Source of the DNA: Fodinibius salsisoli
GTDB taxonomy: Bacteria; Bacteroidota; Rhodothermia; Balneolales; Balneolaceae
Length of the DNA stretch: 64,000 bases
Assembly (NCBI RefSeq): GCF_026229185.1
Contig: NZ_JAGGJA010000008.1
Coordinates: 124,001-188,000 of the forward strand
Direction of reading: 5' to 3'
Positions 43,901-50,032 of this stretch are shown here, one piece after another; position 1 is the stretch's first letter, and each line of letters begins with the position of its first letter. The position numbers and the translations under genes were made by a program. Under the pieces are notes generated by a model. That model did no database searches, was not told the origin of the DNA, and saw nothing but the letters and a program-made list of their open reading frames with translations.

Positions 43901-46900
43901 TTATCGACCATGACTCGCATTTCGTTTTAAGGTAACAGAATCGTTACCTAAGAGCGTTTTTAGTCCATTTAACAATTCTTCATTGGGATCAATAACGAAT
44001 TTACGAACGTGCATTGCAAATGGTCTTTTTGCTTCTTTGCTCAACACATTCAATCGTACATTCGTTTGTCCCTGGTGCTGTTTAAACAAATTGGCCATTT
44101 CTTGCAACTCATCCTCATTTACCTGGGTCGTATCAATATCCAGTTTTAACTCAATCTGATCCTGGTATTTTTCGCGCATGCTTTCGATGCGTTCAAAGCT
44201 GTTGGCAATAATTTGGGCTTTGCCGCGGCGGGTATCAATGCTACCATCAACGACGACCAGCGTATCCACCTGAATCATACCGAGATTGCTGTCATATACG
44301 TCGTTAAAAGCGATGACTTCGACCGTGCCGTGCAGATCTTCTACCTGCAGAAAGGCAAAAGGGCGCCCTTTTTTATCCGTTACGCGGTTTACTTCCGTGA
44401 TGATGCCTGCACATCGAACTTCTGTACGATTGTTCAGCTGCTCCAGCTTATCCGGATCGAGGGTGTGTGAGCAAAACATATCAACATCTTCCTGGTGCTT
44501 CTCAAGCGGATGCCCACTCAGGTAGAACCCAATAAGCTCGCGCTCTTTGTTGAGCCGCTCAATATTCGACCATCGCTGAACATTGGCAAGCTCGGGCTCA
44601 TCAATGGCCGAAGCGCTACCCGTTCCATCGCCGAACAGATCCGACTGATTGGAATTTTCCATTTCCTGCACGCGCGAGCCATAGCTAACAATCATTTCCA
44701 TACTTTCCAGCAGCTGGTGGCGATGCGGATTCAATTCATCAAAGGCTCCGGCCTGGATCAGGCTTTCCAGCGTGCGCTTGTTGCAGATGCGCGAGTCGAT
44801 ACGGCGGGCGAAATCATAAATAGATTCATACTTTCCATTCTCTTTTCGCTCTTCTACCACTTCTGCCACCGCATTAGAGCCCACGCCCTTAATAGCTTCC
44901 ATCCCGTACTGGATACGTCCATCCACAGCTACAAACTTACCGGCACCAGTGTTTATATTGGGCGGATCCACCGTAATACCATTATGGTAAGCTTCCTCAA
45001 TAAATTTCGATACTTTATCGATGTCACCCATATTGTGGGTGAGTACGGCGGCCATATATTCCGGCATGTAATTCGCCTTGAAGAAGGCCGTCTGGTAAGC
45101 CACCACCGAATAAGCAGCCGAGTGCGACTTATTAAAGCCGTAATTGGCAAACTCGGCCATAATATCGAAAAGCTCTTCGGCCTTGCTCTCGGTCACCCCG
45201 TTTTCTACCGCGCGCTCGGTAAACACCTTGCGCTGCTTGGCCATCACTTTCTTTTTCTTCTTCCCCATCGCACGGCGCAGCAAATCCGCTTCACCGAGTG
45301 AGTAGTTGGCAATGATCTGAGCAGCCTTCATAATCTGCTCCTGGTAGATCATAATGCCGTAGGTCGGCTTGAGCAATTCTTCCAGATCAGGATGGGGATA
45401 CTCGACCTCGCTACGTCCGTGCTTACGATCAATATATTCGGGGATAAACTGCATGGGGCCCGGACGATAGAGTGCGTTCATGGCAATCAGGTCATCCAGG
45501 GTGGTGGGTTTCAGCTGTTTGAGATACTTCCGCATTCCGTCCGACTCAAACTGGAAGGTCCCAATGGTATTCCCTTTTTGATACAGCTCGAAGGTCTTGT
45601 CATCATCCTCAGGCACATCATCCAGCTCGTAATGAACGCCATGATTTTCTTCCACATACTGGATGGCCGTCTTCAGGATCGAAAGCGTCTTAAGACCCAA
45701 GAAGTCCATTTTCAACAGTCCGCACTGCTCGGCATGGGGACCGTCGTACTGGGTAATCAATTCTTTATCCTTGGAGAGCGCCACCGGCACATAATCACTT
45801 ATTTCTCCCGGTGCGATAATAACGCCCGCCGCGTGTATACCGGTCTGTCGCGCAGAGCCTTCCAGCGTACGTGCAAACCGCATCATCTTCTGTACCTGTG
45901 GATCCGGATGTTCAAAAAGCTGCTGGATGTCTTTGGCCGACTCTGGGTTCTTGCGGGAATCAAGGACGTCTTCAAACTCAGTAAAGCCCGGTCCATCCGG
46001 AAACATTTTTGTGATACGATTTACCTCTTCCAACGGCACACCCAGTACACGCCCCACGTCACGGATGGATGTTTTGGCCTTCATCGTACCGTAAGTCACA
46101 ATCTGGGCCACATTGCTGCGCCCGTATTCTTCAACTACGTAGTCAATGACCTCCTGCCGGCCGCCATCGTCAAAATCAATATCGATATCCGGTGGACTTA
46201 CCCGCTCGGGATTCAGGAACCGCTCAAACAGCAAGTCGTGCCGCAGTGGATCTATATTGATAATGCCCAGGCAATAGGCTACGATAGAGCCTGCCGCCGA
46301 ACCCCGACCCGGCCCCACAAAAACATCACGCTTACGGGCTTCGGTCGTAAAGTCCTGTGTAATCAGGAAGTAACCGACGAAATCCATATCCTTGATAATG
46401 GCAAGCTCCTGCTCAATGCGCTCGCTTACATCCTGAGTGACTTGCCCATACCGCTCCTTGGCGCCCTCGTAGGTTAACTGGCGCAGGTAGTCGTACATGG
46501 AGTCATATTCATCCGGGATGGTATAATCTGGAAGCAGCAACTCTGAACTGAGCTCAATATCATCGACCTTTTCGATAATCTCATTGGTGTTATCCACCGC
46601 CTCCGGAACATCGCTAAAAAGCTCCTTCATCTCTGCCGGCGTCTTCAGGTAGAACTCGGTATTCAGGTTGTTGTTGTCATCGGTAAACCGAAATCGATTG
46701 GGATCATTAATATCCGCATTAGTCTGCAGAGCCAACAGAATATCGTGCGCCTCAGAATCTTCTTCCTCCACGTAATGCGAATCATTGGTCGCAATCATCT
46801 TTACGTTATACTCCTTCGACCATTTGATCAGCACTTCGTTACACCGATTCTGGTCTTCCAGGCCGTGGCGCTGAAGCTCAATGTAGTAATCATCCCCAAA

Positions 46901-47383
46901 GACATTCAAATACCACTCAAAAAGGGCTCGTGCTTCTTTCTCGCTCTCATTGATGATGGTCTGGTTAATCTCGCTGGCAATACAACAGGTGGTAGCAATC
47001 AGTCCTTCGGAATGCTCGGCCAGTGTTTCTTTGTCGATACGGGGCTTGTAATAAAGTCCATCCGTGTAACCGAGAGAGCAGAGCTTTGCAAGGTTTCGAT
47101 AACCGTCCATATTCTTAGCCAGCAGCACCTGGTGATACCGCGTTCGGTCGCTTTTATCATCCATGCCCGAAGGCGTAATGTAAAACTCACATCCAATCAC
47201 CGGCTTCACGCCATGCTTGTGCGCTTCATTCACAAACTCCGGCACGCCAAACATGTTACCATGGTCCGTAATTGCAATGGCAGGCATCCCTTCATTTTTC
47301 GACTTTTTGACAAGCTGGCTGATGCTCGCAGCGCCGTCAAGCATACTAAATTGCGTGTGACAATGAAGGTGTGAAAAGTTCAT
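43901..47383 (-). CDS. dnaE: DNA polymerase III alpha subunit
   Basis: 1160 residues, full length. The N-terminal PHP domain opens MNFSHLHCHTQFSMLDGA, with AIAITDHGNMFGVPEF. The palm holds the catalytic acidic residues in SPPDIDIDFDDGGRQEVIDY and the nearby LKMDFLGLKTLSI. Helix-hairpin-helix and OB domains follow (ELIGFYLSGHPLEKH, then AGIITEVNRVTDKKGRPFAF). It is the catalytic subunit of the replicative polymerase, DnaE1 type rather than PolC. The start at 47383 fits the PHP motif HLHCHT. A minus-strand TAATTTTG element upstream (47441-47448) may be its -7 box. Confidence 0.97.
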   Translation of the reverse strand: MNFSHLHCHTQFSMLDGAASISQLVKKSKNEGMPAIAITDHGNMFGVPEFVNEAHKHGVKPVIGCEFYITPSGMDDKSDRTRYHQVLLAKNMDGYRNLAKLCSLGYTDGLYYKPRIDKETLAEHSEGLIATTCCIASEINQTIINESEKEARALFEWYLNVFGDDYYIELQRHGLEDQNRCNEVLIKWSKEYNVKMIATNDSHYVEEEDSEAHDILLALQTNADINDPNRFRFTDDNNNLNTEFYLKTPAEMKELFSDVPEAVDNTNEIIEKVDDIELSSELLLPDYTIPDEYDSMYDYLRQLTYEGAKERYGQVTQDVSERIEQELAIIKDMDFVGYFLITQDFTTEARKRDVFVGPGRGSAAGSIVAYCLGIINIDPLRHDLLFERFLNPERVSPPDIDIDFDDGGRQEVIDYVVEEYGRSNVAQIVTYGTMKAKTSIRDVGRVLGVPLEEVNRITKMFPDGPGFTEFEDVLDSRKNPESAKDIQQLFEHPDPQVQKMMRFARTLEGSARQTGIHAAGVIIAPGEISDYVPVALSKDKELITQYDGPHAEQCGLLKMDFLGLKTLSILKTAIQYVEENHGVHYELDDVPEDDDKTFELYQKGNTIGTFQFESDGMRKYLKQLKPTTLDDLIAMNALYRPGPMQFIPEYIDRKHGRSEVEYPHPDLEELLKPTYGIMIYQEQIMKAAQIIANYSLGEADLLRRAMGKKKKKVMAKQRKVFTERAVENGVTESKAEELFDIMAEFANYGFNKSHSAAYSVVAYQTAFFKANYMPEYMAAVLTHNMGDIDKVSKFIEEAYHNGITVDPPNINTGAGKFVAVDGRIQYGMEAIKGVGSNAVAEVVEERKENGKYESIYDFARRIDSRICNKRTLESLIQAGAFDELNPHRHQLLESMEMIVSYGSRVQEMENSNQSDLFGDGTGSASAIDEPELANVQRWSNIERLNKERELIGFYLSGHPLEKHQEDVDMFCSHTLDPDKLEQLNNRTEVRCAGIITEVNRVTDKKGRPFAFLQVEDLHGTVEVIAFNDVYDSNLGMIQVDTLVVVDGSIDTRRGKAQIIANSFERIESMREKYQDQIELKLDIDTTQVNEDELQEMANLFKQHQGQTNVRLNVLSKEAKRPFAMHVRKFVIDPNEELLNGLKTLLGNDSVTLKRNASHGR

Positions 47384-47440
47384 GCAGATTACTCCAGTTT
47401 AAGAATGAAAGGTTGGCATAATGATACAATTCATACGCCA

Positions 47441-47448
47441 CAAAATTA
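47441..47448 (-). promoter_or_regulatory. Possible dnaE -7 promoter element
   Basis: On the minus strand TAATTTTG is a perfect TAnnTTTG match about 57 bp before the dnaE start codon. No TTTG is found at 20-base spacing, so support is weak. Confidence 0.3.
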
Positions 47449-47537
47449 AGGAGATATTTGGAATTGTTTGGAGCAAAGACAAAGACTCCTGCTCCCGGAC
47501 CAGACTGTAGAGAATACTTAACTTTCTAAAATTTATA

Positions 47538-47664
47538 TTATCTATTGCAGTTGACTTCAGTCAACTGAATAAGAATTGAAAAAAGATTTAAGCCTTCTTC
47601 CTTAGCAGTCAATTCGAACTGTCTTCTTATCATGCAGTCAGCTGAAGCTAACTGCAATAGATAA
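47538..47664. repeat. REP-like double-hairpin element next to a RAYT gene
   Basis: The ends TTATCTATTGCAGTT (47538-47552) and AACTGCAATAGATAA (47650-47664) are perfect 15-base inverted repeats. Each arm continues into its own small hairpin: CAGTTGAC-TTCA-GTCAACTG on the left and CAGTCAGC-TGAA-GCTAACTG on the right. The two hairpins are also nearly complementary to each other. This is the layout of a BIME, two inverted REP sequences, and it ends 10 bp from the transposase gene stop codon. Confidence 0.75.
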
Positions 47665-47674
47665 CTGTGGCTTC

Positions 47675-48103
47675 TCATTCCTTCCATCCATACTTATCTG
47701 TAAATTCTCTAAGCTCCTTGGAAAAAGACTTGGTTTTATGATGTTTTTCCTGATTATGAATATATTTCCTCAATGATGACACATGGCTTTCGCTTACACT
47801 CACTGCCCAATAATCATCCTGCCACATAAATTTATGCCGGGTGAGTTCATTTTCATTGATCCAATAGGATGATTCTCCTTTTATAAACTGAACAACCTTG
47901 CCTAACGTTTGTTCTTTTCCAAGCGCAATAAGACAATGTGCATGATCGCGGTAACCATTCACACAGTCCAGCCAGATCTCTTTATCTTCAGCATTCTGCT
48001 TGATATGCCGAAATACTTTATATCTCAGCTCTCTTGTTTTGAGAAACGGCATCCTGTTTTTTGTTGAGAATACGATATGCACCCAAATTCTTACCCAACT
48101 CAT
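47675..48103 (-). CDS. REP-associated tyrosine transposase (RAYT, IS200/IS605-like Y1 family)
   Basis: 142 residues from ATG 48103; an in-frame ATG at 48112 is also possible. The start MSWVRIWVHIVFSTKNRMPF is typical of RAYTs. The HUH metal-binding pair is His 54 and His 56 in GYRDHAHCLIALG, and the likely nucleophile is Tyr 114 in SLRKYIHNQEKHHKTKSF. These single-strand nucleases cut at REP hairpins and spread or maintain them in the genome; they do not usually move their own gene. The matching double hairpin at 47538-47664 is probably its substrate. Confidence 0.88.
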   Translation of the reverse strand: MSWVRIWVHIVFSTKNRMPFLKTRELRYKVFRHIKQNAEDKEIWLDCVNGYRDHAHCLIALGKEQTLGKVVQFIKGESSYWINENELTRHKFMWQDDYWAVSVSESHVSSLRKYIHNQEKHHKTKSFSKELREFTDKYGWKE

Positions 48104-48201
48104 AATTTCCAACTCTTGTGAATGATTTCTCTCTTTTTTAAACGCTCTTTGTTAAAAAGCTGTACTCATATTTAGTTTTTTTGTCAATGAATTCCAAATA
48201 T

Positions 48202-48621
48202 CTACTCTCCCAAAACCTGCAAGAAAACAGCTCGCTCCCGTGGACGATTATCGTGGTTGATAATGACGATCTGCTGCCAGGTGCCCAAGACCGGTTTGCC
48301 GTTGTGCAATGGTACGGTGATGCCGGGCCCCATCATAGTGGCACGCATGTGCGAGAATCCATTGTCATCGCCCCAAGTCTGGCCATGGCGCGTCGTTTGA
48401 TCCTGGGGCGCAAACTCCTCCAGCTTGTCTTTCATATCCTGCACTAGAGCGGGTTCGAATTCAATGGTTGTGATAGAAGCCGTAGATCCAATCGGAAAAA
48501 TATGGATAAGTCCCTCGGTAAAATCATTCTCACGGACAAACTGACGAACATGATCCGTAATATCCCTGATATCCGAGAACCCTTCCATTTCTACCGTGAT
48601 TTTTTGTCCGACAATATCCAT
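48202..48621 (-). CDS. YjbQ/UPF0047 family protein (secondary thiamine-phosphate synthase enzyme)
   Basis: 139 residues, the family length. Motifs are LIHIFPIGSTASITTIEFEP, HMRATMMGPGITVPLHNGKP and LGTWQQIVIINHDNRPRERA. The trimeric fold carries a conserved His cluster. Some members show weak thiamine phosphate synthase activity, but the main cellular role is unsettled. The gene lies 4 bp after the alpha/beta hydrolase gene on the same strand, so the two are cotranscribed. Confidence 0.85.
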   Translation of the reverse strand: MDIVGQKITVEMEGFSDIRDITDHVRQFVRENDFTEGLIHIFPIGSTASITTIEFEPALVQDMKDKLEEFAPQDQTTRHGQTWGDDNGFSHMRATMMGPGITVPLHNGKPVLGTWQQIVIINHDNRPRERAVFLQVLGE

Positions 48622-48625
48622 AGGT

Positions 48626-49459
48626 TCAATCTTTTGAGTTTGGGTATGCGTCAGTGTCTAAAAACTGTTGGAGTGCTTCCCGGTATTCTAGCCCCGTATC
48701 CAGGAATCCAGTTCCGTGACTCCCCTGCAACTCAACAAATGTCTTGGGTTCCGGTGCTGCCTCAAAGAGTACGTTTCCATGGTGGAAGGGCACAACCCGA
48801 TCGTCTCTACTGTGCGCCATAAACAATGGCACTTTCACCTCCTTGATGTAATCTATAGTCGGATACTGATACCGGAGGAGTTGCCTTACCGGAAGCCAGG
48901 GATATAAGTCAGCTCCGAGATCTGCCGCCGAAGTAAAGGTAGATTCAATAATCAGTGCCGCAGGATTTGTCCGGGCGCCGAGCCAGGCGGCTATAGCTCC
49001 TCCCAACGACCGCCCCTTAATAATGATATTTTTGGAATCTATACCACGAACAGTCGTCAAATAGTCCCAGGCAGCTTTCGCATCTCGGTAGGTTCCCTGC
49101 TCCGATGGCGAACCCTCGCTTTTCCCGTACCCCCGGTAGTCAAAAATAAAAACATTAACTCCGAGTGAATGCAGTAGCTTAATACTCGCCAAACGCCCCG
49201 ATATGTTACCTGCATTGCCGTGGCAATAGAGCACCGTGGGCTTCTCACTACCCGCTGATATAAACCATCCATGAAGCTGGATGCCATCTGTAGTCTCAAA
49301 AATAATTTCCTCAAACGGTAACCCTACGGATGAAGGGTCTCCCCACAACTCCTCGGTTGGGTGATAGACCATCTTGGCCTGAAACAGATACAGCAATAAC
49401 AGAATACAAATATATCCTGCTCCAATTGTTCCTGCTATCCATAGCAATGGCTTAATCAT
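48626..49459 (-). CDS. Alpha/beta hydrolase, membrane-anchored
   Basis: 277 residues of the BEM46/ABHD13 type. An N-terminal membrane segment lies at about 5-27 (LLWIAGTIGAGYICILLLLY). The oxyanion and nucleophile regions are VLYCHGNAGNISGR and IIKGRSLGGAIAAWLGA (Ser in GRSLGG). The acid is Asp in AHSRDDRVVPFHHG, and the His is in VELQGSHGTGFLD. Substrate is unknown; relatives are lipases or serine peptidases. It is the first gene of a pair with the YjbQ family gene. Confidence 0.85.
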   Translation of the reverse strand: MIKPLLWIAGTIGAGYICILLLLYLFQAKMVYHPTEELWGDPSSVGLPFEEIIFETTDGIQLHGWFISAGSEKPTVLYCHGNAGNISGRLASIKLLHSLGVNVFIFDYRGYGKSEGSPSEQGTYRDAKAAWDYLTTVRGIDSKNIIIKGRSLGGAIAAWLGARTNPAALIIESTFTSAADLGADLYPWLPVRQLLRYQYPTIDYIKEVKVPLFMAHSRDDRVVPFHHGNVLFEAAPEPKTFVELQGSHGTGFLDTGLEYREALQQFLDTDAYPNSKD

Positions 49460-49579
49460 CTCAACCTAATAGATTATTTATAATAATATAGGAGGATCCT
49501 CTTTCTTGCAGGATTACGTTAGATCCTCACTTACCAGGCTACTTTGATCGAAGAAAATAAAAAGTGATAGTAAACTATA

Positions 49580-49855
49580 TCAATGGTAACGTATTTCGAA
49601 GGTATCGAAATCTTCCTCTGTTTCTTCGACCTCCACATCTACATTATCGACCCTGCTGGCTCCTGGACCCTGCTCACAGCGATTAACCATCTCGCGTATA
49701 TGATCCAGCGGACCTGCAAATACAGCTTCCACACGACCATCAGGCAGATTTTTAATCCATCCAAAAACACCAATTTCTTCTGCATTGACTTTCGCAAAAT
49801 GGCGATAACCAACACCTTGCACTCGTCCATCTATAAATACATGCGCTTGTTGCAT
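49580..49855 (-). CDS. acyP: Acylphosphatase
   Basis: 91 residues from ATG 49855. The frame is open further upstream to 49930, but that part has no family similarity. The catalytic Arg and Asn are in GRVQGVGYRHFAKV and FGWIKNLPDGRVEA, the two family signatures. It hydrolyses acyl phosphates such as acetyl or 1,3-bisphosphoglycerate in the cytoplasm. It is a single gene, divergent from oxyR. A perfect -7 element TACCTTTG lies at 49919-49926 on the minus strand. Confidence 0.93.
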   Translation of the reverse strand: MQQAHVFIDGRVQGVGYRHFAKVNAEEIGVFGWIKNLPDGRVEAVFAGPLDHIREMVNRCEQGPGASRVDNVDVEVEETEEDFDTFEIRYH

Positions 49856-49918
49856 ATAACTAAACTCCTTGTAACTCTTTTGATCTAAAATTTTTTGTTC
49901 ATTAATCCCGTTAGCGGT

Positions 49919-49926
49919 CAAAGGTA
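49919..49926 (-). promoter_or_regulatory. Possible acylphosphatase -7 promoter element
   Basis: The minus-strand TACCTTTG is a perfect TAnnTTTG match, 64 bp before the acylphosphatase ATG. There is no good TTTG at 20-base spacing. Confidence 0.3.
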
Positions 49927-50032
49927 CCAATCTAAAAGGAAATATCTAACTTTCAACAATTTATAATCATAAAGTTTGTATAATTAACCCTTGTGAATTG
50001 AACTTCTACTATACACAGACCTATTTTCTCGA

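Follow-up and report, generated by a model that had tools for sequence, protein, structure and literature searches.

The locus analysed here most probably holds a REP/REPIN system run by an IS200-type Y1 transposase (class 1, subclass-1.2-like) and not by a classical RAYT, represented here by one gene and a single REPIN. It lies in the window, the whole 64,000-nt stretch of Fodinibius salsisoli DNA that was analysed (contig NZ_JAGGJA010000008.1, positions 124,001 to 188,000). Support for this reading came from the association of hairpins with the gene, compensatory changes in the stems, conservation of the loop, inverted pairing of the hairpins and, in relatives, dispersed copies and relics of the enzyme gene. 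The coordinates are collected in Table 1.

Table 1 Features of the transposase gene and the REPIN-like element, in window positions.
Feature	Position	Strand	Description	Evidence
REPIN-like element	47538..47664	.	Two REP-type hairpins, inverted and inward-facing; perfect 15-bp terminal inverted repeats (TTATCTATTGCAGTT at 47538-47552, exact complement at 47650-47664)	Single-strand fold z -5.1, -4.2
First REP	47540..47573	+	Foot ATCTATTG, stem CAGTTGAC/GTCAACTG (47548-47567), loop TTCA	R2 model without window sequences: 50.7 bits, E 1.6e-11
Second REP, inverted	47629..47662	-	Foot ATCTATTG, stem CAGTTAGC/GCTGACTG (47654-47635), loop TTCA	R2 model: 38.3 bits, E 5.6e-8
14-mer AGATATTTGGAATT of the inverted pair bracketing gene and REPIN	47452..47465	+	Exact 14-mer only twice in the genome (other copy: 48190-48203)	
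Second 14-mer copy, inverted	48190..48203	-	Overlaps the stop codon of the yjbQ-like gene	
Y1 HUH transposase gene, subclass-1.2-like TnpAY1	47675..48103	-	142 aa from the conserved ATG at 48103 (longest start TTG 48112)	Pfam Y1_Tnp E 2.2e-23; 42-row alignment; AlphaFold2 mean pLDDT 91.1
HUH motif codons H57-A58-H59	47936..47944	-		H57 and H59 invariant in 42 alignment rows
Presumed catalytic Tyr codon, Y117 in YIHNQEKHH	47762..47764	-		Invariant in 42 rows; aligned with the Tyr of IS608 TnpA

The element was 127 bp long, and 10 bp separated its end from the stop codon of the gene (47664 vs 47675). Its arms were 79% complementary across 38 nt. The first stem had eight Watson-Crick pairs, and the second, read on the minus strand, seven plus one G-T. 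The two stems were unlike (CAGTTGAC vs CAGTTAGC), yet within each the two halves paired. Both arms, read from the ATTG side, had the same loop. The foot was ATTG on both arms, and a GT[AG]G foot was absent. The sequence-only reading had described perfect 15-base inverted ends, a small hairpin with a four-base loop in each arm, mutually complementary arms as in a BIME, a distance of 10 bp to the end of the gene and no obvious enteric-type GTAG; each of these was confirmed, with stems of 8 bp. A REPIN is two inverted REPs folding into one hairpin, and this is what was found for the 127 bp (z -5.1). The whole element folded as one long hairpin 5.1 standard deviations (4.2 on the other strand) below dinucleotide shuffles, and none of 200 shuffles was as low. 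A covariance model (R2), built from 58 hairpins of other genomes and none from the window, was applied to the window only. It found both hairpins, against a background of 15.1 bits for the opposite strand of the first hairpin and 12.3 bits for the next separate site.

By their sequences, the neighbouring genes, both on the minus strand, look like dnaE (43901-47383) and yjbQ (48202-48621). No tnpB-like gene directly adjoined the transposase gene. The 14-mer AGATATTTGGAATT bracketing gene and REPIN had no further exact copy in the genome. The two copies might be halves of a stem behind the yjbQ-like gene, with the unit inserted in its loop, or the terminal repeats of a larger unit.

The transposase gene had an open frame with H57-A-H59 and Y117 intact (residues numbered from the TTG at 48112). 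HMMER aligned the HUH and Tyr residues with those of IS608 TnpA. The middle HUH residue was Ala, not a bulky hydrophobic one. Pfam Y1_Tnp matched at 83 bits. Two NCBIfam models stayed under their cut-offs, with 51.4 bits for the IS200/IS605 transposase (NF033573, cut-off 55) and 35.5 bits for the REP-associated tyrosine transposase (NF047646, cut-off 80). PADLOC gave no match. The protein had one other match in its own genome, 38% identical, and a plasmid search returned two distant records at E 1e-10. In the PDB, a sequence search had no match at E 0.001; at E 10 it returned IS608 and ISDra2, with the closest solved structure at E 0.0027. The predicted structure was confident (pLDDT 91, pTM 0.82). 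Foldseek placed the predicted model closest to ISDra2 (E 6e-9), with ISDra2 and IS608 filling most of the first 29 rows and the E. coli REP enzyme 4er8 at rank 30 (E 5e-6). Opposite to the E-value order, the model had its lowest rmsd with 4er8, 3.2 Å (5.2 to 16.7 Å for the remaining 29, mostly between 6 and 9 Å), which may only be an effect of modelling a monomer.

The motifs of the protein were DHAH, WQ and YIHNQEKHH (Y-x3-Q-x2-HH), in 142-145 aa. Subclass 1.2 of TnpAY1 is described with DH[IV]H, WQ, YIKNQKEHH (Y-x3-Q-x2-HH) and about 148 aa (Quentin et al. 2018, PMC6006769). The motifs of the protein match this subclass, with Ala replacing I/V in DH[IV]H. The RAYT/TnpAREP class has a Y-x3-NP motif, and a GT[AG]G foot occurs in most of its REP-bearing subclasses (PMC6006769). 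Y[IVL]xxNP was found in none of 82 alignment rows (80 homologous loci, the window and the family genome G067). Residues W94, Q95, E100, H101 and R104 of the E. coli enzyme have been discussed for reading GTAG (PMC6006769). At these positions the window protein kept W and Q, and had A, V and S as the equivalents of E100, H101 and R104 (A3 alignment, counted without gaps), which agrees with the absence of GTAG. Owing to YIHNQEKHH, the low NF047646 score and the greater closeness to IS200-type TnpA by sequence and Foldseek E-value, strict membership in RAYT/TnpAREP is not supported; the name RAYT would fit the function. The first description as a RAYT gene with an intact HUH motif and Tyr was thus right about the HUH and Tyr residues, invariant in 42 rows, but not about the class, with Y-x3-NP lacking and NF047646 below its cut-off.

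Hairpins were counted beside homologous genes, using the best 80 of 88 loci from named genomes (75 at 53-69% identity, five at 32-49%). These loci spanned Bacteroidota, Ignavibacteriota and Balneolota, with related species counted apart (16 Dyadobacter). Two badly broken genes (L161, L167) and four with one stop each (L111, L120, L171, L172) were kept among the 80 and in the tree, with X at stops. A hairpin with an 8-bp stem and a 4-nt loop, any loop allowed, lay within 350 bp of the gene at 68 of the 80 loci. Control windows of almost equal size, placed about 1.5 kb off, fitted into 56 of the loci, and none of these had such a hairpin. Both limits, 350 bp and 8 bp, were set after examples had been seen. 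The proposed pairing of a Y1 HUH transposase with a REP-like double hairpin is supported by this count.

The hairpins near the genes shared their loop. TNNA-loop hairpins numbered 164 in 53.7 kb near the genes and six in 393 kb more than 1 kb away, and any-loop hairpins in the same sequence 169 and 35. The loop was TTNA in 82 of 89 distinct near hairpins vs 6 of 35 far ones (loop-open search). A first count restricted to TTYA had given 57 of 80 loci, with 131 hairpins near and 30 elsewhere. Stem variation was followed in 60 hairpins (A1), selected for good stems and for TTYA loops; counts of presence and loops come from the loop-open searches instead. The typical unit was ATCTATTG-CAGTYNRC-TTYA-GYNRACTG. 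Seven of the eight stem pairs varied on both sides among the 60, and the covariation score was 0.661 vs 0.209 in shuffles; as these hairpins were chosen for pairing, their 100% paired cells are uninformative. Among 24 more distant homologues (34-52% identity), a near hairpin was found at 11 loci and none at 13 (7-bp rule). Their loop was TTNA in 22 of 23 hairpins, on quite different stems, so that loop and architecture appear to be more lasting than the sequence of the stem. A TTYA-only scan allowing a mismatch listed hairpins at several of those 13 loci, e.g. L024 to L029 and L031. We count against the REP/REPIN reading that 12 of the 80 homologues and 13 of the 24 distant ones had no hairpin under the rules used.

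The foot of the nearest TTYA hairpin faced away from the gene, as if enclosing it, upstream at 30 of 45 loci and downstream at 30 of 44, and 28 of the 80 homologues had TTYA hairpins on both sides. The window gene lies outside its hairpin pair, unlike this enclosing arrangement, which also counts against the REP/REPIN reading. At several Dyadobacter loci (e.g. L143, L139, L155) the foot ended in TAG, not TTG; the presumed guide thus differs between lineages.

The position of the window hairpins, within the 291 bp from the stop codon of the gene to the start of dnaE, with both genes read in the same direction, would also suit a mere transcription terminator or RNA structure between the two. We find this very improbable. 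No terminator-like site was found in 47300-48700 and no Rfam match in 46000-50000, and many relatives have hairpins upstream of the gene as well as downstream, in both orientations.

The hairpin core occurred once in the genome (4.85 Mb, 43 contigs). With up to three mismatches there was one other place, with three mismatches, and the reversed control pattern had two chance places, also with three. A covariance model (R1) found nothing above 23.5 bits (E 0.08) beyond the two window hairpins, with 150 of 1,683 candidates scored. The sequence-only reading had named a single occurrence of the core as refuting evidence; by core search and covariance model, a single occurrence is literally the result for this genome. 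The lone REPIN, giving no sign of spread in this genome, counts against the REP/REPIN reading. We rejected the own-genome count as the deciding test, as too narrow, since relatives show the hairpins beside the gene and, in several, dispersed. Multiple REPs elsewhere or a replicating REPIN family were not found in the genome itself, and multiple REPs were present in several relatives. A classical RAYT/REP pair seems to coexist at L007 of the same genome (C4:53428-56694), where another Y1 gene with YILNNP has beside it a GTAG...CTAC 'double foot' palindrome, the hairpin at 1385.

Dispersed copies were searched for in 92 family genomes using R1, which includes the two window hairpins plus hairpins from G071 and G061. 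At E 0.001, matches were found in 11 genomes. A homologue of at least 60% identity was listed in seven genomes (the window genome, G041 with a broken gene, G055, G061, G067, G068 and G071), and all seven held hairpins. Among the other 85, four had hairpins: G044 and G078 (one each), G046 (seven) and G050 (32). These four, lacking a close homologue of the gene, count against the REP/REPIN reading. The co-occurrence of gene and hairpins gave a Fisher p of 4e-8, which ignores relatedness. In G067, G068, G061 and G055 there were copies at a large distance from the gene or on separate contigs, and in G041, G071 and the window genome all matches were near the gene. G067 held at least 20 hairpins at E <= 0.001. 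Within the genus of the window, 0 of 11 other genomes had a match (covariance model, E 0.001). All copy numbers are lower bounds, as the family scan scored 76 candidates per genome with stricter filters, and a separate per-genome scan 150 of 1,321 to 2,144. A DNA similarity search with the element at E up to 10 gave matches in 91 of the 92 genomes, mostly noise; only those repeated by the covariance model were used. In G050, a genome of about 390 contigs without a listed match to the window protein, several hairpins were less than 100 bases from a contig start; the enzyme of its 32 hairpins may have been lost or may fall in a gap of the assembly.

In Dyadobacter, one stem pattern, typical of some of the species, with up to two mismatches had matches in 11 of 12 genomes, G105 having none, and the reversed control pattern had none in the 12. 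Counting gene-adjacent sites, the genomes with matches had 1 to 21 of them on the forward strand and 1 to 22 on the reverse strand, the two strands mostly matching at shared sites. Some sites adjoined the gene (e.g. four G097 sites within the L152 span), and others were on other contigs. A tandem REP array was seen in Pedobacter cryophilus (G095, genome of L094), with seven same-orientation hairpins at C10:16191-16938 spaced about 119 bp apart.

The shape of the copies was examined in 20 stretches around matches in G067 and G068. Eleven held an inward-facing pair like that of the window, with spans of 135 to 365 bp, and two an inward-facing pair around the gene (L209, L221). Against the REP/REPIN reading we count the four foot-to-foot stretches (L211, L212, L219, L222) and the three with a single hairpin (L214-L216). 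In most G067 and G068 units a short hairpin, GGCTTTAGCC, followed each long one; it was not intact in the window, which counts against the same reading. Near-identical pairs stood at different places of G067, L233 and L235 with 97% identity over 459 bp and L233 and L234 with 99% over 340 bp. This near-identity indicates recent copying, in at least one relative.

Two G067 hairpin pairs retained different, internally deleted parts of the gene. The L213 pair kept the last 30 residues, 70% identical to the gene of G067 itself, and the L210 pair 15 residues from the HUH motif on (87%) plus a little of the 3' end. Similarity of both to the gene locus stopped about 60 to 190 bp outside the hairpins (5-kb stretches). 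Deleted derivatives with different break points would be what an autonomous element leaves, and a descent of REPINs from an IS200-like element would lead one to expect gene pieces inside hairpin pairs. On its left side, the G067 gene locus was split by an insert. At about 70-196 of L209, beside the transposase gene, a partly palindromic insert of ~127 bp, apparently in the foot of the left hairpin, had CTATTA on both sides. It appears to be like a MITE with a target duplication.

Such gene-bearing units with deleted copies in G067 would also be left by an ordinary or decayed IS200-type insertion sequence, whose hairpins are its ends and which is or was mobile only as a whole, the REPs having no life of their own. 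The gene often lies between inward-facing hairpins in relatives, and ISDra2 and IS608 TnpA are the closest solved enzymes, as such an element would have it. We nevertheless consider it rather unlikely, given that hairpin-only pairs outnumber the gene in G067 and G068, that a tnpB-like gene is lacking directly beside the transposase gene, and that near-identical gene copies were not found, with one homologue of at least 60% per genome among the matches listed. The place of the gene argues against it as well. In 15 of 16 Dyadobacter species the gene lay between argH-like and purM-like genes, and in the 16th beside the purM-like gene; such a conserved place is RAYT-like and would not be expected of an active insertion sequence. 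Of the usual IS200/IS605 traits, hairpins at both gene ends were not seen in the window, where both are 3' of the gene, nor were several near-identical copies per genome in the window genome.

Conservation of place in Dyadobacter, low hairpin copy numbers there and the single pair in the window genome would also be expected of a domesticated single-strand nuclease with a host job, its hairpins being fixed regulatory or processing sites that do not move now. The recent copying seen among L233, L234 and L235 speaks against it, as does the gene's absence from the same place in three genomes of the window's genus, and we regard it as quite improbable. In these three, yjbQ and dnaE were neighbours only 133, 173 and 190 bp apart, which leaves no room for the gene, vs 818 bp here; the three came from nine other genomes with a close yjbQ, in the remaining six of which dnaE was not found within the downstream reach. 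The gene had a GC content of 37.7% (GC3 38%), dnaE of 49% (57%) and the whole window of 44%. Base composition and the short yjbQ-dnaE gaps together point to a foreign origin in the window genome. Gene and one REPIN were thus probably acquired horizontally between the yjbQ-like gene and dnaE, without spread since. No well-supported group of the tree held the window protein (few alignment columns), which counts against the REP/REPIN reading, and we therefore name no donor.

A mechanism for the REP/REPIN system can be proposed by analogy. Related Y1 enzymes act on single-stranded DNA: they grip a hairpin at its loop or at irregularities, are guided by the tetranucleotide on the 5' side of the stem, and cut with their Tyr (PMC8266576, PMC6006769). 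For cutting of Marinomonas REPMb, T12, T13 and A15 are needed and position 14 is free, which makes a TTNA loop (PMC8266576). From the match of the present loop to this requirement, and from ATTG at the tetranucleotide position, we infer that the loop is the recognition signal and the foot the guide. Where the region becomes single-stranded, e.g. on the lagging strand, each REP would fold into its 8-bp hairpin. The enzyme would bind the hairpin by the TTNA loop, the unpaired ATTG foot would be set in place as guide, and Tyr117 would cut and rejoin the DNA next to the foot. The inverted pair, i.e. the REPIN (127 bp here), could thereby be copied or moved in trans. Both the gene and the pair look intact and may still be active.

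A wider reading, which we rate as evenly balanced between true and false, is that there is a second REP/REPIN lineage on class-1 (IS200-type, subclass-1.2-like) transposases across Bacteroidota, Ignavibacteriota and Balneolota. It would have its own code (TTNA loop, ATTG foot) and preserve the step from insertion sequence to REPIN, with the gene inside the same inverted hairpin pair that, once the gene is deleted, makes dispersed REPINs. REPINs have been suggested to derive from the flanks of an IS200-like element (Bertels and Rainey 2011, PMC3116915). The G067 hairpin pairs with pieces of the transposase gene are material for this old question. If the REP/REPIN reading is true, at least a branch of subclass 1.2 gains a substrate and a mechanism. 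Dyadobacter would offer a convenient system: it has cultured species, the gene keeps its locus in 15 of 16 species, and 11 of 12 genomes searched had matches.

In the open-licence literature, outside which most subscription papers lie, we found no published description of these hairpins with this enzyme. A 2024 paper reports RayT genes in Chryseobacterium, and the part of its text consulted mentions no repeats (PMC11194056). A 2025 REP-counting tool found thousands of REP-like sequences in Flavobacterium genomes, with no transposase named in the searched part of its text, and some of these may belong to the present kind (PMC12306157). A 2021 survey includes a palindromic RNA candidate from Bacteroidetes, thought to be maybe a REP (PMC8040213). 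The CGTC-type repeats, reported from Bacteroidetes too, were considered and set aside as different: their stems begin with A-T pairs, and they flank no transposase gene (PMC3733652). REP/transposase pairs have been reported for Y1 enzymes of class 2, with atypical ones in class 3, and REPINs, RAYTs and the atypical subclass 2.6 structures without GT[AG]G are known (PMC6006769). The difference here lies in the enzyme class, subclass 1.2 having been reported without REPs.

Subclass 1.2 resembles the present system in DHxH, WQ, Y-x3-Q-x2-HH, a length of about 148 aa, a tail past the Tyr, few diverged copies per genome and occurrence in Bacteroidetes (PMC6006769). In 2018 it was distinguished by its lack of both insertion-sequence properties and REPs; Table 1 of that study gives 'no' for REPs, and typical terminal IS200 structures are generally lacking (PMC6006769). 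This differs from the defined hairpins at 68 of 80 homologues here, and the study describes the absence of REPs and terminal hairpins as general, not as defining (PMC6006769). Part of subclass 1.2 may truly be hairpin-free: no near hairpin was found at L003, the second such gene of the window genome, nor at L170-L172.

IS608 and ISDra2 TnpA (subclass 1.1) are the nearest solved structures, both by sequence and by Foldseek. Unlike them, the present system has no near-identical copies, no adjoining tnpB, inverted pairs of like hairpins, and Y-x3-Q-x2-HH.

With class 2 TnpAREP/RAYT and REPINs it shares a low-copy Y1 gene beside inverted REP pairs that are also found elsewhere in genomes (Bertels and Rainey 2011, PMC3116915). 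It differs in lacking Y-x3-NP and GT[AG]G, in its ATTG/ATTA foot (TAG in several Dyadobacter) and in the single pair in the genome. Such class 2 systems are reportedly also the subject of Nunvar 2010.

Subclass 2.6, mostly from Bacteroidetes, has similar hosts and REP-like 'atypical secondary structures' without GT[AG]G, but its enzymes carry NH[LIV]H and YIH[QN]NP in a median of 179 aa, vs DHAH and YIHNQEKHH in 142-145 aa here (PMC6006769). Marinomonas REPMb has a stem of 5 bp, a GTAG foot and an enzyme of RAYT group 3, and is like the present hairpins in its perfect stem and in its TTNA loop, which is needed for cutting (PMC8266576).
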